Positions 17,734 through 42,937 of a DNA stretch of 42,937 bases are shown here, piece by piece; position 1 is the first letter of the stretch, and every line of letters begins with the position of its first letter. The position numbers and the translations under genes were made by a program. Location of the stretch: positions 17,501 through 60,437 of the forward strand of contig JAHBMJ010000015.1 in assembly GCA_018398765.1 (NCBI GenBank), written 5' to 3'. Below the pieces are notes generated by a model. It saw only the letters and a list, made by a program, of their open reading frames with translations. It was not told the origin of the DNA and searched no databases. The DNA comes from Chromera velia. Its lineage: Eukaryota > Sar > Chromeraceae.

Positions 17734-20270
17734 CGCCCTAAGGCCTTCCCGCTATGTCTATCTGTCGCCAGAGCTAGCAGGGCGGGGCGTTCCCCAGCCT
17801 AAGCTGAGGTATCAGACCCCGCCCTCGGGGCCCGCCAGAGTCTGTTGCCCTGGCCGCTGCTGCATGATTATTCGTTGTTCGAGCCACGGCTCTGGATCCG
17901 CGTTGGCTTTCCGGCCTGAAAATCGATCTGAAACGGCATGTGATTTGGGCTTCCTCGCTCTTTTTGTTTGCTTTATCAATCTTCTTCTGCGGCTCCCTCC
18001 TTCCCCACCCTAACGCTCCTTCGGTCGTCTCTAAGTTATCAATTGTCTCCTCATATTCTTTTGTTAGTCTCTCGATCGCCCGCTGCCTTCCGGTGATTCC
18101 TGCATGTCTGGCCGCCAGAGCGTCTCCCTCTATGTGTCCGTACCATCCTGGACACTCCTCAAACACCCTCCGTCTGAATAACGTCCATCCCAAAAACTCA
18201 TCCACTCCGGCATGACATTCATTCAACAGAAAACAGAAAAGCGTCGAGTTGTCCCTTTTTCCCTCTTCTCTGTTGAGCCCTTCTCTTTCTGTGGCTGCCT
18301 TTCTGGCTCTTTCTTCCATCTTGCTGTCCCATTTCCCTTCTATCTTTCTGAACATTTCTGCTCTCTCTCTGTCAAAAACAGGACATTCTGTCACCAAATG
18401 GATTTCATCTTCCACCACCTCGATTCCCAACCACCCTCGACAGAACTGGCACATCCTTTTCTGTAACGGCACCTTCTCTCCCCCCCTTACCGGAATTTTT
18501 CCCTGAGTCGCAGCCACAGCCCTGTCTCCCACCCTGCATGCTGCTCTCCTCCTGTGTTCTGATCGCGGCGCCACTCTCGTATAGCAAAAAGGGGCTCTCC
18601 CTATTCTCTCTCTGTCTATTTTCATTGTCGAGCCAACCTTTCTACCTGCTCTGTCTTCAAACAAAGAAAGGTGGAGACGGTTTCCGTTTGAGACCTTTCT
18701 GTGCACGTCAGCCATCATCACTCCTGTCAGTTCTGCCTTCTCCTGACTGCTCTTCTCTCTTATGTTTCTTTCTATTCTATGTGCAAACGCCTCTCTCTTC
18801 TTCTCGTCTAGCTCATTTTTTGTTCTCTTCAGCAGCCATCTCTCTATCCCGTCCACTCTCTCGTTGACTACCTGTGTTCCTCTCTGCCCTACGCTTCCTT
18901 TTAGTCTTTCTCTTGCAAAAGGGTGCATTCCTCTGTCTGTGTAGAGTGCCTGTGCACATTGTTTCAGATGAGGGAAAAGATGAAAAGGATGCATTCCTCT
19001 CCCCCCTCCCATTTCGTTCTCTATCCCCTCTCTCAGGCATGTAAGGATTGCCTGCCCTACCGCTTCGTTTCTTCTCTCCTTTAAAGCCTTCCCTGCCCAC
19101 CGGATCGTTCTGGAAGCCACTTCGAGATCAATCGGAATGAAACCTCCTTCCATCATCAGCGTGTCACAATTCTCTTTCTTTCTCAAACGCAAAACAAACC
19201 TGACAAATCTCCTTTGCTTCTCGTCGAATTCTGCATACGCGCTATCTGGGCATGCATGGATTTCGCATCCATACAACCATACGGCGCGCACTGTCTGTTT
19301 AAATATATTGAAGCAATCAGCGGGTGGAATCCCTCCCTCCCTTCCTATCTTCCCCATCAGTCCCTGCATGCATCTCTCTGCTTTGATTGACCGTGCTTTC
19401 ATCATGGTTTCTAGGTTGCAGTCGGCGGATAGGACTAGTCCCAGGTAGGGTTGCTCTCTTGCTTCTTTCATCACTATCTCCCCCAGTCTAACTTCTTCTT
19501 TCTCTCTTGATGCGATACGGCCAAACCGGACCAATCTCGACTTGTCAGAGAATAGAAGACGGAGAGGTTCTGCAAAGGCTACAAGGTTCGAAAGAAGAAG
19601 GTTCAACTGTCTATCTGAGGATTCGAGGAGTGTTGTGTCATCTGCAAACAGAGGGGCAAGGAAATCGACCCACCTCCCGTTTTCTCCTGCCGGCACCTTT
19701 GGCCTCTGTCTGTCGGTCTGTCGTCTCTGTCCTCTCCTCTTTCCTACTTCCTCTGGCAAGTCATGTGTGTACACAGAGTAAAGGGAAGGGCCGCTCGGGC
19801 CTCCTTGCTTGAGTCCTTTGTCTTCCGGGTACCACATGCTCGTTCCCTTCACCCGTGCCCTCACTTTTTCCAGAGAGGCCTCAACCCATCTGATCAGGCC
19901 TTCCTCCACCCCTGCCTTTCTCAATTTCTCTTTTAACTTTTCAAGCCTCACTTCGTCGAAAGCCCGTGTGAAGTCAACAAAAGCAACACTGAGCACTTCC
20001 ATTCGAGCAATAATGAACAGCAAAAGAAAAATTGCATCGTATGTGCCTGTCTTTCTCTTGTATGCGAACTGCCATGGCGTCTGTCTGGCTTCCTTTTCCA
20101 CCTTTGTTCTCATGATCATGTCCCCCCATTTCGCATCTGCTACCACCAGGTGCACTCCCCTCCATCCCCCAAGTAGTGCGAGTGACTTACCCGGTTTTGG
20201 AAGGGCCGTCACCAGCAAGTCATTCCACCCTTTCGGCCACCAACCAAAACGATATGCAACATTAATTAAC
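17697..20270 (-). mobile_element. 5'-truncated non-LTR retrotransposon (LINE) with (ATCA)n tail
   Basis: The minus-strand reverse transcriptase frame enters abruptly from AT-rich flanking DNA near 20260, inside the N-terminal RT region. No endonuclease domain is present. The 3' end runs past the stop at 17774 to a GAACATATCAATC tetranucleotide tail at 17733-17697. Truncation at the 5' end with a simple-repeat tail is the usual outcome of target-primed reverse transcription. The frame has no premature stop, so the insertion is probably young. Confidence 0.75.
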
Positions 20271-20371
20271 AAAACATACAACAGAGTGAATGTAATTAAG
20301 CATATAGTACATGATTGAAACTGTTTTTCAGACACTATACAATTTAATAATAATACAACTATTGATCTCAA
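17774..20371 (-). CDS. LINE reverse transcriptase, 865-codon open frame
   Basis: Reverse transcriptase of a non-LTR element, which copies its own RNA at a nicked target. Visible motifs in order: GWNDLLVTALPKPGK and GGWRGVHLV (RT motifs 1-2), VAFVDFTRAFDEV (first catalytic Asp), GLKQGGPSGPSLYS (the 'QG.P.GP.L' motif), APLFADDTTLL (the catalytic FADD pair) and YLGLVLSAD. C-terminal to the RT is CQFC...H...CPVF, a CCHC zinc-knuckle-like motif common at the end of LINE ORFs. It is followed by a Lys/Arg-rich tail. The first ~35 residues are encoded by AT-rich flanking DNA and are not part of the element. It differs clearly in sequence and C-terminal finger type from the second LINE at 34.6-38.1 kb. 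Confidence 0.85.
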   Translation of the reverse strand: MRSIVVLLLNCIVSEKQFQSCTICLITFTLLYVLLINVAYRFGWWPKGWNDLLVTALPKPGKSLALLGGWRGVHLVVADAKWGDMIMRTKVEKEARQTPWQFAYKRKTGTYDAIFLLLFIIARMEVLSVAFVDFTRAFDEVRLEKLKEKLRKAGVEEGLIRWVEASLEKVRARVKGTSMWYPEDKGLKQGGPSGPSLYSVYTHDLPEEVGKRRGQRRQTDRQRPKVPAGENGRWVDFLAPLFADDTTLLESSDRQLNLLLSNLVAFAEPLRLLFSDKSRLVRFGRIASREKEEVRLGEIVMKEAREQPYLGLVLSADCNLETMMKARSIKAERCMQGLMGKIGREGGIPPADCFNIFKQTVRAVWLYGCEIHACPDSAYAEFDEKQRRFVRFVLRLRKKENCDTLMMEGGFIPIDLEVASRTIRWAGKALKERRNEAVGQAILTCLREGIENEMGGGRGMHPFHLFPHLKQCAQALYTDRGMHPFARERLKGSVGQRGTQVVNERVDGIERWLLKRTKNELDEKKREAFAHRIERNIREKSSQEKAELTGVMMADVHRKVSNGNRLHLSLFEDRAGRKVGSTMKIDRERIGRAPFCYTRVAPRSEHRRRAACRVGDRAVAATQGKIPVRGGEKVPLQKRMCQFCRGWLGIEVVEDEIHLVTECPVFDRERAEMFRKIEGKWDSKMEERARKAATEREGLNREEGKRDNSTLFCFLLNECHAGVDEFLGWTLFRRRVFEECPGWYGHIEGDALAARHAGITGRQRAIERLTKEYEETIDNLETTEGALGWGRREPQKKIDKANKKSEEAQITCRFRSIFRPESQRGSRAVARTTNNHAAAARATDSGGPRGRGLIPQLRLGNAPPC

Positions 20372-20417
20372 AAAAATAAAACTTGAAGAAGAAAATATTG
20401 AAAACTATAGATTGGAG

Positions 20418-23197: not shown

Positions 23198-26100
23198 TCA
23201 AGTGACCGCTGCTGCTCTTGCGTGGCGGCGCTGCAGAAGGGACTCGAGGGCAGGTGGGCTGATGGCGGCGCCTCTGCATTCCTTGCATCGACTGCGCCGC
23301 CGCCCATGCTCGCAATAAGCTGCACCCCCACATTCCTTGCAGTAGTACCGCGCTCGCCCATGCTCGCAAAGGCTCGAACCTCCGCAGTCCTTGCAGCGTC
23401 TGCGCTCCCGGCCATGCTCGCAAAGGCTCGAACCTCCGCAGTCCTTGCAGCGTCTGCGCTCCCGGCCATGCTCGCAAAGGCTGGAACCTCCGCAGTCCTT
23501 GCAACGATTGCGCCGCCGCCCATGCTCGCAATAAGCTGCACCCCCACATTCCTTGCAGTAGTACCGCACTCGTCCGTGCTCACAGACAGCAGACTTAGGC
23601 TGGCGTTTAGACACAGACACAGGCAAAGTCTTGAGCCCCTGAAGGAGATCAGTCGAAAAGGAGACGGCCAAAAGTGAAGTCTCTTTCTTGGACCCATCAC
23701 GCAAACGCTCTTCTATTCTGATCTCCTCACATGCGGACGGAGAGTGGGCCAACAATCCGCGTGCGAACGCCTCTGCAGCCAAACGAGCCCCACCTTCTCC
23801 AAAGTGAAAAGACGAAAAGCGGAATTTATGCACACCCTCATTAACTAGTGTTTTTCTCACTTTCTCGTTTTTTCTTCCCTGCCTAGAACCTGTCTCGTTC
23901 TCCTTCCTCCCCCCCCCCCTCCGATCACAAAAGTTTGTCCATTTGGGGTCATTTCTGTCGACACACAAAACTTCCCACGAGGCAGAGTCGCCCCGACGCA
24001 CTCCCGGTATTTCCTCCAAAGGCTGCTGCTCTCCTACCTCTTCAAGAAGCTTTCTCACCTCTGCAACGTTCTGCAGACGGCAGAAATGCCTTCTAAAGCA
24101 CTTCCCAATACATGCAGCACCCCCCTTTCCGTACACCGAGACGGGTATCGAAATCAAACGACTCTCAGCAAACCGCCCCCACGCAGAAGGAAAACGTGAT
24201 GGATCAAGCACCAGCCACTCCTCTCCATCCACTACGACCCATCTCTCCCGGTCTCTCTGCACAACCCGGCTGAATTCCTCTGCATTCTCCCTCTGACAAA
24301 CAAAAGACAACACGTCTCCCCCCCCCTGCACATCAAATTGACGGACAAGCCTCTTTGGACTCTCACGCCGAAGCCTGCCTCTAGGATCTTTCAACAAAGA
24401 CTTCTCCTCAACATACTCAACAACCCAAGCGCCCTGTGGAGACGCCAAATGAGACTTGGAGTCCTTTGTGGAACCTGCGTCTGTCTCCCGCTCCTTCTCC
24501 TCGTCTCCCTTCCCTCCTCTCCCCCGCTCTTTTTCCTCTGAGAAAAGCGCTTCTTCTTCCTCCCCCCTACTTCCCCCTACCGTTTTCTTTCCTCCTCTCT
24601 TCTGTTTCTGAGTGCTCTTTGGTTCTCTCTTGAGACACTTCCACGAGACACCAAGACGAGAGCTGTGGAGAGACTCCACAAAACCACTCGCAAAGGCATA
24701 GGCAGCTGCGAGAGCCCCTCTGTGGCCGTATCGGGAGACGGGAAAGCGCACGCGTGTGACAGACAAGCGCAAAGGGTCAACAAACCGGACCTCCCAACTC
24801 TCTCCCAACTTCCATCTTTTCTCATCCTTCTCTCTTAATTGATTCCAGAGGGTCCGGCTTCTTACTGGAGCAGCGTGCTTCCAGCTGAGCGTTACTAGCC
24901 CCTTTCTTTTGAAGGCAGCTTTTCCAATCTTGGCCTTCATTTCTTCTCCCTCTCTTGAAGAAGAGTATGCTAGTGAGGGAGACAAAAAGCGCTCTAAACA
25001 CACACCCCTCATCGCGTCTTCAAACAAAACCTCTGACAATTCCTTCGCTGAGGCCCAGGCACCTCCAAGACCGAAAGAAAAGGCGGGGAAGAAGAACGAT
25101 GGGTGCCTTTTTCTTTTCTTTTTCTTCGGCTTTGTTCGCCCGATCTCCTCACTCTTCCCGTCCCCTACCCCCTGCCCTGACAGATCAGACATGTCCACTA
25201 CAAACCCACAGTCCCTCCCTTCACCCTGCTGCTCTCCAATATTAACATACCGAGGTGTGAGTGCAACCCTATGCACCCACGAGGCAAATCCCTCAGCTGC
25301 CGCTCGGGACCCCCCCTCCCCATACGCCTCGACTCCGAAATTTCGTTTGCTTTTCTTCCTCACCGATTTCAGGTTCTTCCAACCCTGCGAGATGTAAGTC
25401 ACTCTCCACACACACTGATGCTTTCCCGTTGACATCTTGACCACATCGGGGGACACCCCCACAGGCCGTCTTTGGCCATCTACAGCATCTAATGTTTGCT
25501 GACGCTCCAACCACCCCAGACGACTGCTTTTCAGTGCATCAGGGGGAGGATTCAGAAAGGCCTCCAACGAACTCCCTCCCTCTTCTGCAGCCTTCAGCAG
25601 TCCTTTAGCGAAACTCTCAGCTGCGCACTTGGCGCCCTGAAAGGAGAACTGATTGGCGGCAAAACTGTAATGTCTCGTCAAATTCGTCAAGGTCGTCTGT
25701 CCTTGGAGCAGACTGCTGTTGTCTTCTTCTGGGAGTCCTCGAAGGATCTCCTCACAATCAACTCTCCAAACACGCTTGATACCCTTTCCATACAGACCTA
25801 CCCCGGGCACGGAGGACACTGCCTCCCCTCCCCCTTCCCCCTCCCTTTCTCCTCTTTCCTCCGCTTCTGACGGAATCAACTTGAGCATGCCAGGCTCCTC
25901 CCTCGACTGCAAAAACAAAACTGTCGGGTCGACCCGAAAGAGTCGAATGCTCTTGGCAAAACGAACCGCACGCTCACGAGCAGCGGCAACTCCCACTTCG
26001 GAGGCACTGAAGAAAGCGGAAATTGGCGACCCCCTTCGCGCACGCACTATCCAGCCCTTCATGCCCTCTTTGGTTGTTGACCAGGTAACAAGGGGGGCGT

Positions 26101-27505
26101 TGCCAAGGGCTGCCGCCGTCTTGTCGGCACCGTGAAGAAACTTTTTTCGAACGTTGTCGGCAATTCGTTCGTCTGCCCTCTTCCACTGCTGTGCTGACTG
26201 TGCATTCGGCAACGTCTCCACCTCCCCCGTCAGACGCGACTTCACCTGCTGAAATTCTTTCGAAAAATCGCTCATGTACACATCAAGTGCACCCTCTGCA
26301 CTTTCCGCCTCCTCACCCTTAGCACCCTCAGTCTTCTCGGACGACGCGAGAGCAAAAGGAGGTCGTGTTGCCCCCACAGCCACTGACGGGAACTTTGGCT
26401 CCTCCTCGAAGGCCCCGAAAGAACCGAAGGCAGGGGAGAAGGATAACGAAGGGAGGGACGCAGAGGTCCCGGGGGGGAGGCGGGGCACGTAGGGAGAGGG
26501 GGGGGCAAGGGGTGGAGCGAAAGGTGGAAGAGGAATAAACGGCTTTGCAGCAGGGAGGGCTGAAGGGTTTGTGGGTGAATGTCTAGTTCCCTTCTGTCCC
26601 TTCTTTTTCTTCTCTCCCTTCTTCCTGTCATCCTTGTCTGCTCTCTCTGGCGTCTCCTTCTCCTTCTCCTTCTGCCAGAGGAAAGGGTCCCGGGATCGGG
26701 AGGCCGAGAGAAGCAAAACAGGAGGAGAAGAAGGAGAAGGGGGTCTCGGAGGGGGGGGGGAGATCGTGGAACTTCTTTGCCTGTTCCTTTTCCACCTTCT
26801 CCTTTTGTCCTGTCTTCTCCTTCTGGAGACTCTGTGGTCTACCCTCTGGGAGGGAGGCACAGTCGGAGGGGTTTTCGTTTGTTTGCCAGGGATGTTTTTG
26901 TGTTTTTTGGCTTCAGCCCCACGATGTGCATGCATTTGCTTATCCTTCTTTGTCCTTTCTGTTCCTGTCTCGGGATTCAAGTTCTTTCCGGGACTCCTCC
27001 TCTTCTCCCCCTCTCCAGACTTGCCTGCTCTTTTCCCCCTCCTCTTCTTTTTCTTCTCCTCAACTCGAGACAGCCCTTCTGGCCCTCGGAGGGCATCTGT
27101 TGAGGGGGGCGGCGGCGTCTCCTCCAGGCTCTTGAACAGAGAGGAGAGATCACCCAGAGACGCACTGGATGGGGTGGAGAGGGAAGAAGAAGAATGTGAA
27201 GGAGAAGAAAGGGAAAGAAGGGGGGAACTGAAGTCGAAGGTTGCTGCTGCCTCCCTCTCCTGCTCCCTTCGCTTCTCAATCTGCCCGCCCTCCTCTAATA
27301 CCAGCGCCCCTTTCCGTCCCTGCAGCGTCACGCTGATCACCCTGTGTCGCCTGACGGGCCGTAGGGGGATCGGCAAAAAAGCCGGATCGCCCCATCTCCC
27401 TCCGCCTCTTTCCACTACATGTACACCACCAGGCTTGACGGAGGAGACTTCTGATAATCCAAGCAAAACGCACAAATCCAGTAGCAGAGAGACACTCCAC
27501 CGCAT
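23198..27505 (-). CDS. Multi-AP2-like-domain protein with C-terminal CEHGR repeats
   Basis: A single open frame of 1435 residues. Residues ~85-420 are low-complexity, Lys/Arg/Pro/Ser-rich. Then come repeated modules of the ApiAP2 type (a Trp-x-Val strand followed by F.v..yG..gA...Ae.FA): about 471-518 (divergent), 577-633, 697-745 (WRVTYISQGWK...FGVEAYGEGGSRAAAEGFA, the clearest), 898-945, 1093-1141 (divergent) and 1173-1251. AP2 modules bind DNA in apicomplexan and plant regulators, so a transcription-factor or chromatin role is inferred. Residues ~1307-1416 are six 18-residue CEHGRxRxxCKxCGG repeats, presumably zinc-binding. The ATG at 27505 is preceded directly by an in-frame stop. The first ~22 residues resemble a signal peptide, odd for a nuclear protein, so the true start may be internal (for example after the TTATCAG acceptor-like site near 27452) or further exons may exist. 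Confidence 0.75.
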   Translation of the reverse strand: MRWSVSLLLDLCVLLGLSEVSSVKPGGVHVVERGGGRWGDPAFLPIPLRPVRRHRVISVTLQGRKGALVLEEGGQIEKRREQEREAAATFDFSSPLLSLSSPSHSSSSLSTPSSASLGDLSSLFKSLEETPPPPSTDALRGPEGLSRVEEKKKKRRGKRAGKSGEGEKRRSPGKNLNPETGTERTKKDKQMHAHRGAEAKKHKNIPGKQTKTPPTVPPSQRVDHRVSRRRRQDKRRRWKRNRQRSSTISPPPPRPPSPSSPPVLLLSASRSRDPFLWQKEKEKETPERADKDDRKKGEKKKKGQKGTRHSPTNPSALPAAKPFIPLPPFAPPLAPPSPYVPRLPPGTSASLPSLSFSPAFGSFGAFEEEPKFPSVAVGATRPPFALASSEKTEGAKGEEAESAEGALDVYMSDFSKEFQQVKSRLTGEVETLPNAQSAQQWKRADERIADNVRKKFLHGADKTAAALGNAPLVTWSTTKEGMKGWIVRARRGSPISAFFSASEVGVAAARERAVRFAKSIRLFRVDPTVLFLQSREEPGMLKLIPSEAEERGEREGEGGGEAVSSVPGVGLYGKGIKRVWRVDCEEILRGLPEEDNSSLLQGQTTLTNLTRHYSFAANQFSFQGAKCAAESFAKGLLKAAEEGGSSLEAFLNPPPDALKSSRLGWLERQQTLDAVDGQRRPVGVSPDVVKMSTGKHQCVWRVTYISQGWKNLKSVRKKSKRNFGVEAYGEGGSRAAAEGFASWVHRVALTPRYVNIGEQQGEGRDCGFVVDMSDLSGQGVGDGKSEEIGRTKPKKKKRKRHPSFFFPAFSFGLGGAWASAKELSEVLFEDAMRGVCLERFLSPSLAYSSSREGEEMKAKIGKAAFKRKGLVTLSWKHAAPVRSRTLWNQLREKDEKRWKLGESWEVRFVDPLRLSVTRVRFPVSRYGHRGALAAAYAFASGFVESLHSSRLGVSWKCLKREPKSTQKQKRGGKKTVGGSRGEEEEALFSEEKERGRGGKGDEEKERETDAGSTKDSKSHLASPQGAWVVEYVEEKSLLKDPRGRLRRESPKRLVRQFDVQGGGDVLSFVCQRENAEEFSRVVQRDRERWVVVDGEEWLVLDPSRFPSAWGRFAESRLISIPVSVYGKGGAACIGKCFRRHFCRLQNVAEVRKLLEEVGEQQPLEEIPGVRRGDSASWEVLCVDRNDPKWTNFCDRRGGGRKENETGSRQGRKNEKVRKTLVNEGVHKFRFSSFHFGEGGARLAAEAFARGLLAHSPSACEEIRIEERLRDGSKKETSLLAVSFSTDLLQGLKTLPVSVSKRQPKSAVCEHGRVRYYCKECGGAAYCEHGRRRNRCKDCGGSSLCEHGRERRRCKDCGGSSLCEHGRERRRCKDCGGSSLCEHGRARYYCKECGGAAYCEHGRRRSRCKECRGAAISPPALESLLQRRHARAAAVT
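23255..23590 (-). repeat. 54-bp coding tandem repeat encoding six CEHGR modules
   Basis: Six 18-codon units. Unit order by sequence is A (RYYCKECGGAAY), B (RRNRCKDCGG), C, C (both RERRRCKDCGGSSL), A (RYYCKECGGAAY), B' (RRSRCKECRG). Each unit has one His and three Cys at fixed spacing. The two C units are almost identical at DNA level, indicating recent duplication. Confidence 0.92.
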
Positions 27506-34614: not shown

Positions 34615-37600
34615 CATTATCATCATCATCATCATACGCCATCGTCATCGGCCCATAGTAGGCGTCTAGCGTTCGGCAAGTCATGACATGCAAGGCAGAT
34701 TGTTAAAGATGGACCCTCACTCGGCAACATTTGACAAACTAGCTTAACAACTACATTTCTTCGTGAACTCTTCTACTTCTGGTAGGGCGTGCTTGTGCAT
34801 GAGCGAGGCTGCTTCATGTGATGTTGACTGCCAGCCATGCCATGCCACCTCATAATGCCATCCTCTTCCTTGCTTGTACTTCTTAAGAATTTCCTTTATC
34901 TGACAGCCCTAAACCCAGCTTCCCTTCTTTTCTGCGACTGTCTTCTTCGGCTGCTCTGGCTGTCTGGGGGCGAGGTCTTTGTGTGCTTTGCTAGTGTGAA
35001 TACGAAGCCCGTAGAGGGTAGAGAACGTTCGTCCACATGCCGCACACTTCGCATCTCCATCTCTCTGCCCCTTTCTCACCTCCCTTTTCCTTTCTTTTTC
35101 TTCCGCTGCTCTCTCCTCTACCTTTTTTACCCCATCTTGAATTAACGCCCTCCACCTGCCCCTATGAGAGGCAAGCGTCTGCCACTCGGCCTCATTGATT
35201 TCCAGAAGGCAGAAATCAGAGAAGACACAGTCGCTCTAATGAAGGAGGGGTCGACTAAGGGGGCGCTCTCCTCGGAGATGCCCAAACAACAACTGACGAG
35301 GAAGACGCTCTCCCCCCATCCTCCCAATATGCCCCAGCTACCGGAGTCTGGCGAGTCTGATAGTGCTCTCAATCGTGCACAATCTAAACGCATGACGGAT
35401 GGCGGCATCAGGAGTACGCTCCTGACAAGGCTAGTTCGTCACCTGCCTTATACGCACTATGCATCATGACTCTAACTTCCTGATCTGGTCTCTTTGAGCT
35501 GCCCACGTCTCTGCCCTATAGAGGAGGGCGGGGAGGACTGCACCTTTGAACATGTGCATTTTTATTTTTGTTGTGAGCCCTGCCCACTTCCATACCTCCC
35601 CCTACAACTTCTCTCACACTATTCCTGCTTTCTGGATGTGGTGATGGATCTCTCCATTGAGAGACCCGTCATTCGACATCACACCCCCTAGGTACTAGAA
35701 CTGCTCTACCTCTTGCAGGGGCTGTCCTTTAATGATAATGATAGACTGACGCGGCTTCGCTATATGCCTTTCCTCCCCCCTTCCCGGCTGCAACATCATT
35801 TCTGTCTTCTTGATAGAGATTTTTAACCCCCACCTGTCGTATGCTGCCTGCGGGCGATCTGCAAACTCCTGCATGCGATACTCTTGCATCTCGGGTGCGG
35901 CCAGCCTGGCCAGGTCATCTGCGAACTTCAGATCAGCGACACTGATCTTGAAGGCGGATCGGCCTGCCTTCTTACTCGAAAAAGGCTCTGCAAAATCCAC
36001 CTCCACCTCTATCCCTCCATCCCAGCCCTGCAAGGCCTCCTGCACAACTGCTTCGAAAAGAATGGAGAAAAGAAGAGGTCCCGGACCAATCACACATCCC
36101 TGTCTGACCCCATTCTCAACTGCAAACGGCTCTGTTCTCTCTCCATTCACCTCTACACATTCCTGCATGTTTTGTATAAACGACATGATGATGTCTATTA
36201 GGAGGGGGGGAATGCTCACCTTCAAAAGCAAAGCACGGAGGGCAACATGATTGACTGTGTCGAAGGCCTTTGTCAGATCAACGAACAGCCTCTCCCGTGC
36301 CTTCTCCATGATCTGCCTTGCAGTGAAAAGCATGTCTATTGTCCCCCTCCCCTCCCTGAATCCCGCCTGTGACTCACCTATTTTCTTCTTGTTTCGCTTC
36401 TAGATGCGACCCCCCACAATCTTTGTAAGCACTTTGCCTGCAACGATTAGCAGGGCGATCTCCCTCCAGTTGTCACAGAGCAGACGGTTGCCCTTCTTGG
36501 GGACAGGGACCATCACTGCATCTCTGAACGCCTTCAGCACCCCCCTTTCCCTCCATACTGCCCTAAAAACCTCCAAAAGCCTGCTAATAATCGCTTCCCC
36601 ACCTGCCTTCAGCTGCTCTACTACTATGCTGTCTGCCCCTACAGCTTTCCCATTTGGCAGCCTCTTCACGGCCTCTCTCACTTCTGCTCTGCTTGGAATT
36701 TTATCTATCCACCACTCCATCCACGCTTGCGGGATTTTCTCTATCACCCCCTCAACTGCCTCAGATAGAAGGTTTACAACTCCTTCAAAGAAATGACCAA
36801 AACGGGCTGGCACTTCCCCTGCATCTGTCAGGGGGGGATTTCCCGCTTTCTGCCCTTCCCCCAGGATCGCCTTGATCCCTGGCCTGCCCTGAGGCCTTTG
36901 TAACTCCTTCTAGAAGCGGTAAAGCTTCAAAAAGTTGTTGTACACAAAGGCCTCTTCAAGCTCTTGTCCCTTCTGTGTCCACCAGGCGTTTCGGGCCCTT
37001 CTGACAGCGTGCGCTGCAGCATTCCGTGCTCCGTTTCGATTCAGCTCCCGTCTCCCCCTTCCTGCTCGCATTCTCATAAACAACCCTTGCTTTCTTCTTC
37101 TGTTCAAGCAACGGCAACAGTTGTAAACACGTCTCTGCAAACCATTCTGGCGTAGGGCGCGTGCTTTTGCTTTCTATCGTAGCTTTGGCGACATTGCGGA
37201 TGGTGACAGCTGTCTCCTCCCACAGCTGTTCAGCTGTTGCTGCGGCTGTGACTTTCGGGAGCTTTTCGAGTACGGCATGGAGCGCGGGACCGCGGGTACA
37301 AACGCTTTACTCGCTTATCCAATGCCTGCTGTACGCTTTCTTGCTTCTGCTTTCTGGGGGAAGGGAGACGGATTTTTAGACCAACGAACCGATGATCAGA
37401 CCAACAGTCGATCAACCTGTATACCCTGACATCACCCACCCTGCTCATATCCCCCCTCTTCACAAGAAAGTAGTCGAGCTCGTGCCACTTTTTGGAACGT
37501 GGGTGCTGCCACGATCTTTTGTGGTATGGGGGGTGCTAGAAGAACGAGTTTGCAACGACCAGCTCATGCTCAAGGCAGAACTCGAGCAAGCACTGCCCAT

Positions 37601-38111
37601 TCTGGTTTAGGTATCTCTGCCCCTCCGTGAACCTCCCTAACACCGCCGCCGTTTCCTCATTTCTTTCTCCCACCCTCGCATTGAAATCCCCCCCAATGAC
37701 GACTGGGTTTCCATTTAGGACTTTTCTCACTGCCTCCCCGAGGTCTCGGTAGAACTCAGCCACTTCCTCGTCTCCTGCCCCACTGGTAGGGGCGTAGGTT
37801 GAAATCAGTATGACGGCTTCGAGGTCAACTCGCCCGATACGGCTTGCATTACCGGTTTGTTACAGCACACCGGGTTTCTGCCTCTCTGCCTTCCTACTGA
37901 ACAAGAACCCCACCCCATTCCGCCCTTGCAATACGCTTCCTGCAGGTGGGCCTGCGAAGAGCAACCGCTGCCTTTCGTAACATTCCGTTTCCCCGTGGAT
38001 ATGGGTTTCCTACAGGAACGCAACGTCCATACTTGCCCTGTGGAACTCCTCCGCGATGTGGGCTGTCTTCTTTGGGGGAGCCTGTGCTCCCTTTCCTCCT
38101 GTATCAAGTAA
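34615..38111 (-). mobile_element. Decayed endonuclease-type LINE with (ATG)n tail
   Basis: A non-LTR retrotransposon about 3.5 kb long on the minus strand. In transcription order it shows an apurinic-type endonuclease, a reverse transcriptase, a C-terminal region with LGHIGRM, and a C2H2 finger. The 3' end at 34615-34635 is (CAT)n on the plus strand, an (ATG)n tail on the element strand. The 5' end is unclear: homology fades at about 38110 into AT-rich DNA. A Lys-rich minus-strand ORF at 38532-38753 might be a detached piece of a 5' ORF, but that is speculative. Confidence 0.8.
34880..38111 (-). pseudogene. LINE endonuclease-reverse transcriptase pseudogene
   Basis: Endonuclease: DVAFL(stop)ETH near 38010, ISTYAPTSGAGD, VVIGGDFNARVG, NQNGQCLLEFC, ELDYFLVKRG and CWSDHRFVGL (the SDH active-site motif). 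Reverse transcriptase: GKAVGADSIVVEQLK, VPVPKKGNRLLCDNWREIAL, LFVDLTKAFDTVN (catalytic Asp), VRQGCVIGPGPLLFS, LKFADDLARLA (FADD) and SIKKTEMM. C-terminal: QF(stop)YLGG, LLYRAETW, LGHIGRMGGERLP, then CAACGRTFSTLYGLRIHTSKAH, here broken as CAACGRTF and GLRIHTSKAH, a C2H2 finger. At least 12 in-frame stops interrupt it (38010, 37860, 37536, 36910, 36400, 35695, 35614, 35602, 35464, 35431, 35338, 35236). One or more frame changes occur around 37100-37300 between endonuclease and RT. It is not functional. Confidence 0.82.
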
Positions 38112-39704: not shown

Positions 39705-42700
39705 CTACCATGTATTAATGCAGCGAGAGCACGCACACCCTACCGCGTGCTCGTAGGTGACTACAAACAGGGGCACTGCAAGCCTGCCGTCAAACACGAC
39801 AAACTCACGGTGGTCCACCCTACCGCCCTCTGCACGCACTGCTGCTACAATGCTGTCGCACCCGTCCGCAGGTCTGTGTGACTGACTGTCCTCATCCAAG
39901 GGCTCCAGCTTCACATCCCGCACACCAACAAAAACCAGGGACAAAAGCATCCGCATCGGTCCCCCGTACGCATGGTGCCTGTGGCTCCCAGGTCCCGAGT
40001 AGAGATCGGCCTTGGAAGCGTTCTCTGCGAAGTAAGTGCCTCGTCCGTAGAGGCTACCCGTGGCCTCCCCACCCCTACAGGGGTCGAAACCCTCTTTGCA
40101 GACCGCCTCCACGCCCTCATCGCTTGTGCCGTGCCACAGCCAGAGCTCTGTCGCAGACCTGCGAGCCTGGACCCTTGCAGACACGTCAGTGCAGAACCCA
40201 AACTCCGAAGCTGGGAAGTGAGAGAAAAGCGGGAGACTGCCAAACTTTGCGTCTGCCATAGAGGGATCGTCGTCGCTCTGCCCATCTATCGAGCGGCCGT
40301 CTTCTCTTTCCCCACTGAGGATTCTCTCCTTCCGCTTTGCCGTCTCCATCAAATACTGGAGGCCCAATCCTGAGGGGAGGCAGATCTCCACATTCTGGAC
40401 CTGCATCCATCCATCCATCCATCCATCCATCCATCCATTTATGCATGGAGTAGTTTTGGGGTTCGTTCAGATTGCATGGCAACATGAATTCATTGCACGA
40501 TCTTTTGAGCACAACTATCCCCCCCCTCAACGCACTACAAAATCAACTTGTGACTAAGGCGGGCCTCTGCACGGAATTCCGTCGCGAAAGGCAATTCAGT
40601 GATTGAAGAACCGAAGCTTCTGGTAGGTTTCCAAAGGCACGCAGAGGGATGAAAGCTTGGACGGCAAGGTCAAGAGTAGCGCGAGCGTGTGTCGTGCGGT
40701 AGAGCGAGGAAGACAGAGAGAGAGAGAGAGAGAGAGAGAGTGCATGAGAAACACGCAGACACAAACACCGACTGGTGCCTCATTTGCATTCTTTTCTTTC
40801 AAAACACATTCATTGGTTCCTTCCTTGGTTTTTCAGTCGATCGGTCAATCTGTGGCCTCTTCCTTCCTTTTCTTTTTTCCCGCTGATTGACAGGCAGAAA
40901 GGCAAGGGAGGAGGAACAGAGAAAGCTAGGTGGAGTGATAAAAAAACTCCTCTGGGAGTTCAGATTTCCGAGACGATCGATGGGAGAACGAATTATAAAC
41001 ACACCTACCTGTAGTCTGGGAGGGCAGCACCACGTGGGATCACCCAGCGCCCGTCTGTGGGAGGTCACAGAGCTCTTCAGATTCTCCTCCACCCATGCTG
41101 CGATCTCTGGAGGGGCCCTCGGCCTGCCTGAGAAAGAACAGGGAGGGCATAGCGCCTTTCTGAGGAAGAAGTCATACAGCATTCCGCCTCTATTTGCCCA
41201 ACTTTGGCCCTCCACCGCAGCCTTCCTACTGCCGCACAAAAGCAGCTCGGTAGAGTCGTTCTGAGGTGCAGTTGCTGCTGCTGTTGTAGCGCTCGGGCCG
41301 TTCTGAGACGTCTCGGAGGCTGTGTCATCCGGATCATGCGCTAGCCAGTCCCCGTTGATGAAGTCCCCGTCTTCCGTCTGAATCTTTGGCACCGGAGACG
41401 CCTTCGCTCCCTCTTCCGAAGCCCCGCGGCGGGGTCGCTTCAAAGAGTGCTCTTGGTGCGCTGTGCGTGACCGGGCCTGTGTCTCTGTCTCTGCAGGAGG
41501 CTTCTCACGTCTCCGGAGAGCGCGCACTTTTCCGGTGGCAGTGTTCACCTGCAGCATCGGTTCCGCATCCACTAAATACGTGAATGCATGTATACACGCG
41601 CATCTTTTTTTCATTTCATCATGAAACACATATGCATGCGCATAAATAAAGAAAAACGATCTTCTTAATTCAAGTCTGCCCGACGTACCTGCATCAATGT
41701 CACCCCATCCGCCTTGTACGTCGCTCCCTGTCTGGAGAATTCCACAGGGGGCGGCAGCTCATTCCCCGCTTCAATCTTGCTTCTGTAACTCTCCAGTTTG
41801 ATGGTCACCTTCTTGCTCAGGGCCTCCCATTTCGAAGGGCCCACGCACACCTCCCACACGCAGCCTGTCGACACTGCAGTTTTCAACATTTCATTCATGC
41901 GTGCGGCAGGGATGGATGCATGCATGATCATTGGCTTCTGTGCATAGAGCCAATCGATCGATCACTTCATGAGGGAAAGATCGTTGCTCAGTGAACACTT
42001 CATGCGACACACGCAAGCAGCTTTCCGCACACAAGTGAAGTCAGCTCGATAGTGGAAGGAAGAGCCCCCGTGGGGCGAAAACAAAAGAGAAAAGACAAAG
42101 CGCGAAGAAAATAAGAAAGTAAAATTACAAGACGAGAAGCTTCGTGAAAATAACAAAAAAATGAGACACAGTGAAAAAACATTCAAAAGAAAAAATAAGA
42201 GAATCAAACAAAGGCAGAAGCAATAATAAAACCGAGCACTGGCCAAGATCCGAAACAAACAAAAAGGAGCACAAGAGGAAGACGTTCACCAAATAAAAAA
42301 AGACGACACTACGGACCAAAAAATCTAGATGCGCTCAGATCGAAGGACAGATCAACAGTCGGAAATTTAGCCATCATCTGCTGAACTAACTCCCTTGTCG
42401 ACCTATCTTTCGCCACCCTCCCGCCTTCGACAGCAAGTTCAGGCCAAAACGCAGAGCATCTCGCAGAGCCTGCCTGCTTGATCACCCAATCTTCCTCTTT
42501 CACGGCACTTCCCTCCAACTTCAGAGCTTGCACCACCGTTTGCACTCGAGAGGAAATCAACGACGCCAACTCTCCCACCGTGTCCTGATTCGAAAGGATG
42601 AAAGGAGAGGACTTCATAGAGACCTCATCTGCGACGACGGCTCCTTCGGGAGCGTTCACAAATTTCAATTCGTACACAACTTCCCTTCCATTTCTGCGCA

Positions 42701-42836
42701 ACTTCAACTCGAGGGTGCTCCCGTTGAAAATTCTGTAGTACGAAAGGGTGCGGTCATCCTCCAGGGTCTGGCCGTTGAAGATCATATCCTGCTGAGGGGG
42801 ACGGACTCCCTCCTTGCCCTCAAACTTTTCCTTCAC
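39705..42836 (-). CDS. Ubl-WWE-PARP protein, ADP-ribosyltransferase (5' partial)
   Basis: A PARP-family ADP-ribosyltransferase, which moves ADP-ribose from NAD to target proteins. Minus-strand exons: 42836-42317, 41873-41689, 41548-41009, 40400-39705. All phases agree. Exon 1 carries most of a ubiquitin-like fold (VKEKFEGKEGVRPPQQ, MIFNGQTLEDDRTLSYY, STLELKLRR); its first strands lie in an exon beyond the window. Exons 2-3 form a WWE domain: VWEVCVGPSKWEALSKK, then GVTLMQ joined across the intron to VNTATGKVRALRR. Exon 4 holds the catalytic domain: LWLWHGTSDEGV (His), YGRGTYFAENASKADLYS (Tyr), LLSLVFVGV and DHREFVVFD (Glu). The H-Y-E triad is therefore present, so transfer activity is expected. 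WWE domains bind iso-ADP-ribose in other proteins. The exon 1-2 junction uses a weak donor (GTCCGT), so two adjacent genes cannot be excluded: without splicing exon 1 stops at 42309. Confidence 0.82.
40401..41008 (-). other. Last PARP intron, with a (GA)n run
   Basis: The interval between the third and fourth PARP exons has the donor GTAGGT at 41008 and the acceptor ATGCAG ending at 40401. It holds an AG-repeat at 40711-40740. A minus-strand ORF piece at 40546-40690 (LDLAVQAFIPLRAFGNL) might be an additional exon. It is not needed for phase or domain continuity. Confidence 0.55.
40403..40440. repeat. (CATC)n abutting the last PARP intron acceptor
   Basis: About nine CATC units. On the minus strand they read TGGA repeats ending directly in TGGATGCAG, the acceptor for the catalytic-domain exon. 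Confidence 0.92.
41874..42316 (-). other. PARP intron between the Ubl and WWE exons
   Basis: A/G-rich on the plus strand (T/C-rich in the sense direction), with a TGCATGCA octamer at 41917-41924 near the acceptor. No other coding signal. Its existence as an intron rests on matching phase (phase 1 to phase 1) and on domain order. Confidence 0.5.
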
Positions 42837-42908: not shown

Positions 42909-42937
42909 GTCTGTGCGGTCGTGTGTGAGTGCGTGTA
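42869..42937. repeat. (GT)n microsatellite at the window edge
   Basis: GT dinucleotides from about 42873 to 42904, then mixed GT-rich sequence to the end. It lies in the intron upstream of the first visible PARP exon. Confidence 0.92.

Follow-up and report, generated by a model that had tools for sequence, protein, structure and literature searches.

A probable Chromera velia enzyme with ubiquitin-like, WWE and PARP domains in one chain, and its relatives in the same genome

Introduction

In the WWE-PARPs of animals (PARP7, 11, 12, 13 and 14) a WWE domain precedes a C-terminal PARP domain. Adaptors such as RAD23 and ubiquilin carry an integral ubiquitin-like domain (Ubl), which stays uncleaved within a larger protein and is used for docking, and in polyubiquitin and ubiquitin-ribosomal protein precursors the ubiquitin is cut off by deubiquitinases. 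The plant RCD1/SRO proteins, which belong to plant clade 2, are described as WWE-PARP-RST proteins (PMC4245714). ADP-ribosylation is known to meet ubiquitination through PAR-reading E3 ligases, through Deltex and through ubiquitin esterified to ADP-ribose, the parts usually residing in separate proteins (PMC12687431, PMC12000418). Some PARPs, nevertheless, bear ubiquitin-pathway modules of their own, namely UBCc or RWD (kin of PARP6/8), UBA, UIM (PARP10) and the U-box (Dictyostelium), and PARP4-like proteins of Acanthamoeba are credited with unspecified ‘ubiquitin-related domains’ (PMC2964712, PMC4245714). These last, which go without a name in the extracts consulted, could resemble the Ubl described below.

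Here we analyse a window of 42,937 nucleotides from Chromera velia (contig C15, positions 17501-60437), at the far end of which a single gene probably encodes a Ubl-(extension)-WWE-PARP enzyme belonging to a small family in this genome. The order of WWE and then PARP is shared with the animal and plant proteins. Unlike the animal WWE-PARPs, the window protein also has an N-terminal Ubl with an extension and a C-terminal Cys tail; unlike RCD1/SRO, it has a Ubl and an intact H-Y-E triad, and a Pfam scan finds no RST in it. With the PARPs that carry UBCc, RWD, UBA, UIM or U-box modules it shares a physical link between PARP and the ubiquitin system, but their modules are E2-like, E3-like or ubiquitin-binding, whereas the module here is itself ubiquitin-like and is accompanied by a WWE. 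RAD23 and ubiquilin are similar in having an integral Ubl and differ in having neither PARP nor WWE, and the window protein gives no UBA match in the Pfam scan.

An earlier note, made from the letters of this DNA, had remarked that an N-terminal Ubl on a WWE-PARP was an unfamiliar arrangement. No Ubl-WWE-PARP protein was found in the extracts of the PARP family surveys PMC2964712 and PMC4245714, in those of PMC1949818, PMC10450202, PMC11269756 and PMC12687431, or, by titles and abstract openings, among the matches listed in our literature searches. The same architecture may already be present, unannotated, in eukaryotic protein databases.

Results

A four-exon gene at the end of the contig

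Four exons on the minus strand (42836-42317, 41873-41689, 41548-41009 and 40400-39705) form, across junctions of phase 1, 0 and 0, a frame of 646 residues plus a stop codon, with no internal stop. This join had been put forward in the earlier note, the coordinates of which are correct. Contig C15 stops at position 60437, which is window position 42937, and the 5' end of the gene is missing for that reason; the upstream exon or exons with the start of the Ubl (about 25 residues, to about ubiquitin position 26) lie beyond the contig end. The acceptor 5' of the Ubl exon reads gtctgtgcag/GTG (slashes mark splice sites). The features of the gene, in the order in which they are transcribed, are as follows.

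42317..42836, minus strand: Ubl, C-terminal part (first ~50 residues), and extension, in one exon; Pfam ubiquitin 45 bits, profile 24-70
42318..42605, minus strand: conserved part of the extension (joined residues 78-173), common to the C732 paralogue
41874..42316, minus strand: phase-1 intron between Ubl exon and WWE exon, 443 nt; sites and phase as in C732
42309..42311, minus strand: in-frame TAG, which ends the Ubl frame if the intron is unspliced; TAA at the same place in the C732 paralogue
41689..41873, minus strand: exon with most of the WWE; sub-cut-off WWE match, joined residues 179-248
41549..41688, minus strand: phase-0 intron GTACGT...CTGCAG, 140 nt
41009..41548, minus strand: end of the WWE, then a linker of low conservation and a pre-PARP segment that is conserved, in one exon
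40401..41008, minus strand: phase-0 intron GTAGGT...ATGCAG, 608 nt
39705..40400, minus strand: exon with the PARP catalytic domain (above the Pfam cut-off) and the stop codon
40133-40131 (H), 40034-40032 (Y) and 39806-39804 (E), minus strand: triad codons in the PARP exon
39755-39720, minus strand: C-terminal tail Y-x-H-x3-C-x-C-x-R-C

Domains of the window protein

The joined protein thus reads, in order, C-terminal part of a Ubl, extension, WWE, and PARP with an H-Y-E triad. When it was scanned against Pfam, PARP (PF00644) scored 52.2-53 bits against a cut-off of 26.7 and ubiquitin (PF00240) 40.5 bits against 25.4, whereas WWE (PF02825) missed its threshold, with 16.6-16.9 bits against 21.1 (E 0.011). 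Two of the three domains named in the earlier note are thus firm by their own scores, and the third falls just short of its cut-off; the Ubl is present in the four-exon model, but only as the C-terminal part that lies within the window, the profile match beginning at position 24. Elsewhere in the family the Ubl match is of whole length (profile 1-70 in the paralogue C2048, 3-70 in C732).

We nevertheless take the window WWE, sub-threshold by itself, to be firm by kinship, because the WWE domains of C732 (23.8 bits) and C2048 (37.4 bits) pass the cut-off of 21.1, as does that of C487 (32.3 bits), and because a profile of the four paralogous WWE domains matches the solved structures of DTX1 (E 3.2e-6), TRIP12 (3.9e-4) and PARP11 (7.2e-4). 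In the genome-wide search for the WWE family, neither C15 nor C732 was among the matches. W4, W13, E25 and Q59 are invariant across the alignment of the four paralogues. Judging from the alignment with DTX1, Q59 is probably the highly conserved Gln that touches the adenine in WWE domains of solved structure (PMC11269756).

For the catalytic exon, the first matches among solved structures are PARP15, PARP10, PARP12 and the tankyrases, and the triad (H90, Y123 and E199) is invariant among five aligned catalytic parts. Its third residue, Glu in the window protein, aligns with Leu in PARP15 and sets the protein apart from most clade 3 mono-ADP-ribosyl PARPs, since most members of that clade have a residue other than Glu at this place (PMC2964712). 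The C-terminal tail recurs, as Y-x-H-x3-C-x-[CS]-x-R-C, in eight PARP loci (C15, C732, C1600, C735, C487, C2048, C1315 and C226), that is, in the window and in the stretches L025, L029, L034, L035, L037, L040 and L041, and it could bind a metal.

Aligned with ubiquitin, the window Ubl keeps Ile44, positions 48, 63 and 70 are Gln, Asn and Lys, and its C-terminus LRRNGR lies opposite LRLRGG, with Gly-Arg in place of Gly75-Gly76 (alignment numbering). Because the terminal Gly-Gly, Lys48 and Lys63 are all replaced, the window Ubl would not seem to be a normal conjugated ubiquitin. Such loss is not general in the family, since Gly-Gly-Met comes after the Ubl of C1315 and Gly-Gly-Pro after the first of those in C732. 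These two glycine pairs, and the three Ubls that stand in a row in C732, speak for a different fate of the protein, in which the fusion is made and the Ubl is then cut off by deubiquitinases, serving only as a chaperone or tag. We regard this as very improbable, because it is the window Ubl itself, together with the Ubls nearest the WWE in C732, C487 and C2048, that lacks the terminal Gly-Gly, and because Ubl and WWE are kept apart by an extension that C15 and C732 have both conserved. A Ubl that stays in the enzyme is the reading we prefer.

Within the Ubl exon, residues ~55-173 match no Pfam family above its cut-off. The idea that the extension is a further, degenerate Ubl was unsupported, hhalign against ubiquitin giving a probability of 0.1 percent and E 0.54 with a two-sequence profile. 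Single-sequence structure predictions (mean pLDDT 40.0 for the Ubl exon and 32.9 for the PARP exon) were too poor for use.

Relatives with Ubl and PARP in the same genome

In the source genome (177.8 Mb, 4040 contigs) the PARP family has 21 matches, spread over 18 contigs. We ran a ubiquitin profile, made from nine sequences, over the window, over a stretch of 6 to 9.9 kb surrounding the match on each of the other 17 PARP contigs, and over stretches of three WWE-only contigs; the stretches from outside the window are named L025 and L026-L044, and the scan covers any Ubl that lies inside them. In five of the 18 PARP-bearing stretches, namely C15, C732, C487, C2048 and C1315, a Ubl stands before PARP and on its strand, and this profile found none in the three WWE-only stretches. 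The genome-wide search for the ubiquitin family yielded 68 matches at E 0.01, including the repeats of one polyubiquitin gene, and six of them lie at four of these five places (C15, C732 three times, C2048 and C1315), the C487 Ubl being too weak. By a hand estimate (68 x 18 x 5 kb over the two strands of 178 Mb), about 0.02 Ubl-PARP pairs would be expected by chance.

In C732 (L025), the nearest paralogue, six exons encode 812 residues without an internal stop, in the order three ubiquitin stretches, extension, WWE (23.8 bits) and PARP (50.1 bits). C2048 (L037:5211-6989) holds a whole-length Ubl (31.3 bits) and a WWE (37.4 bits), both above cut-off, in one uninterrupted frame of 592 codons, and its PARP domain runs from L037 6990 onward in other frames. 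The 595-codon frame of C487 (L035:5248-7035) contains a WWE of 32.3 bits and a Ubl of 19.8 bits (below cut-off, E 7e-4), with a PARP of 45.0 bits in an overlapping frame (L035 6908-7888) and two assembly Ns inside the overlap. C1315 (L040:3547-1859, minus strand) combines the second part of a Ubl (28.3 bits) and a PARP (25.9 bits against a cut-off of 26.7; 27.6 in the genome search) in a frame of 562 codons, in which Pfam finds no WWE.

Comparison of the order of parts in relatives, which the earlier note had suggested for orthologues, was made here on paralogues of the same genome, and the order recurs: in C2048 and C487 the Ubl and WWE share one frame with PARP following, in C1315 the Ubl and PARP share one frame, and in C732 the Ubl is joined to WWE-PARP at the same splice sites and in the same phase as in the window. 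In these sister genes the parts stay in order, and in some of the genes no intron separates Ubl from WWE; for this reason the fusion looks real, and at the level of the family we take them to decide the question of one gene or two.

In a rough, unrooted PARP tree of 10 loci (eight other PARP loci were dropped, their pieces being under 90 residues), C1315 stands apart from the other four Ubl loci and beside the Ubl-less PARP of L041. Since it is not grouped with them, the Ubl-PARP fusion may have arisen, or disappeared, on more than one occasion.

Some further features of these loci were noted. The three Ubls of C732 are arrayed before WWE-PARP at L025:2601-4393, and the second and third have introns just 5' of the equivalent of ubiquitin position 26. 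The PARP part of C2048 shifts frame twice at L037:6980-7435, where short introns, assembly error or decay may be involved. L042, which represents one of the WWE-only contigs (the other two are C3638 and C2199), gave no Pfam match when translated through one frame.

The junction between Ubl and WWE

At the junction the window has the donor G/GTCCGT (42317/42316) and the acceptor CTGCAG/ (41874/41873), and the stop at 42311-42309 lies inside the intron. This stop could be the end of a gene of its own, in which case two adjacent genes would be present, a Ubl-extension gene ending at 42309 and a WWE-PARP gene beginning at an ATG, for example that at 41898, the fusion having been split in the ancestor of C15 and C732. 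Such a split is conceivable for this pair, because both copies stop at the same codon (TAG in the window, TAA in C732) and both have an in-frame ATG 5' of the WWE.

We consider it improbable, however, in view of what the two copies have and have not conserved. The donors, G/GTCTGTAA in C732 and G/GTCCGTAG in the window, both conform to G/GTCYGTAR (GTNNGT), both acceptors are CTGCAG/, positions and phase (1) agree, and each acceptor lies 17 bases 5' of a shared TGGGAG. Within the intron the likeness does not extend beyond these sites: nine of the first 12 intron bases are the same, then 3, 1, 2 and 5 of each following 12, and an alignment of the intron bodies scores 24, within the range of 200 shuffles (mean 22.9, maximum 39). 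Around the acceptor 18/60 bases are identical upstream and 41/60 downstream, so that the sequence of a putative separate WWE start, which would lie upstream, is not conserved between the copies.

The shared stop itself is easily had, in that at intron bases 6-8 it needs only a T at +6 followed by AA, AG or GA. The other six introns of both genes have the donors GTACGT, GTAGGT, GTCAGT, GTAGGT, GTCAGG and GTAGGT and, without exception, end in TGCAG; GTCCGT and GTCTGT are in keeping with this pattern, C at +3 being found in two of the six. A stop just after the donor is unremarkable, because the T at +6, present in five of the six other donors, starts a codon in a phase-1 intron. Finally, two separate genes are at odds with the related paralogues C2048, C487 and C1315, which hold parts in one frame. 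A single spliced gene is thus the reading that we retain.

Selection and age of the duplicates

Between C15 and C732, dS and dN are 1.53 and 0.51 for the extension (52% amino-acid identity, 86 aligned codons), 1.18 and 0.20 for the WWE, 1.09 and 0.20 for the pre-PARP segment, and 1.39 and 0.25 for the PARP exon. In the Ubl part dS is saturated, with a dN of 0.61 and 40% identity, and the whole Ubl exon gives 2.43 and 0.56. As duplicates, the extension and the WWE-PARP parts seem to be of much the same age, because the dS of the former (1.5) is near the 1.1-1.4 of the latter, as expected if all were duplicated together; by these estimates the Ubl part is evolving faster than either.

The same values bear on whether the locus makes a product. 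A pseudogene remnant in a transposon-rich region might be suspected, because the window contains pieces of reverse transcriptase and of an endonuclease, the latter lying about 1.8 kb away from the gene, and because the WWE is sub-threshold. We give this hardly any credence, however, because four exons run without internal stop or frameshift and because dN is below dS in each stretch measured, the amino acids of every exon being conserved.

Discussion

The domain architecture is well supported, and the functions of docking, reading and writing are those that we infer from it. The enzyme of the window would be a PARP with a permanent, non-conjugatable Ubl, which probably docks it on ubiquitin-binding partners (the proteasome, a segregase or E3 ligases). 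The WWE would bind ADP-ribose units and so keep the enzyme on targets that are already ADP-ribosylated, where the PARP domain would extend or spread the modification. ADP-ribosylation and ubiquitin-dependent handling would in this way be coupled in cis.

A bolder proposal, which we put forward tentatively and think rather unlikely, is that of a lineage-specific family that has its own Ubl platform, of up to three Ubls, before an ADP-ribose reader and writer, and that achieves the coupling with no need of a further protein, an E3 ligase that reads PAR, or else uses cis-ADP-ribosylation of its own Ubl as a switch. A chain of Ubl, WWE and PARP, present in several copies in this genome, would allow a single protein to be used for testing whether a Ubl recruits the ubiquitin machinery to ADP-ribosylated targets, and also whether a PARP is regulated from within by a Ubl.

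As to more distant PARP-like genes, a scan of viral sequences with the PARP alignment found one locus, L045:3966-5453, on a viral contig of 316 kb. In this frame no Ubl or WWE was seen by eye; it is distant from the query (35% identity over query residues 72-136), with the match near its C-terminal end.

In the surroundings of the window gene, all on the minus strand, 17777-20404, 35698-36399 and 37536-37859 hold retroelement remains near the gene, namely reverse transcriptase frames, two of which score above the Pfam cut-off, and a fragment of an endonuclease that falls just short of its own. An open frame of 1435 codons at 23201-27505 (minus strand) has no Pfam match at E 0.001, and inside it, at 23271-23581, lie tandem repeats of 54/108 bases.
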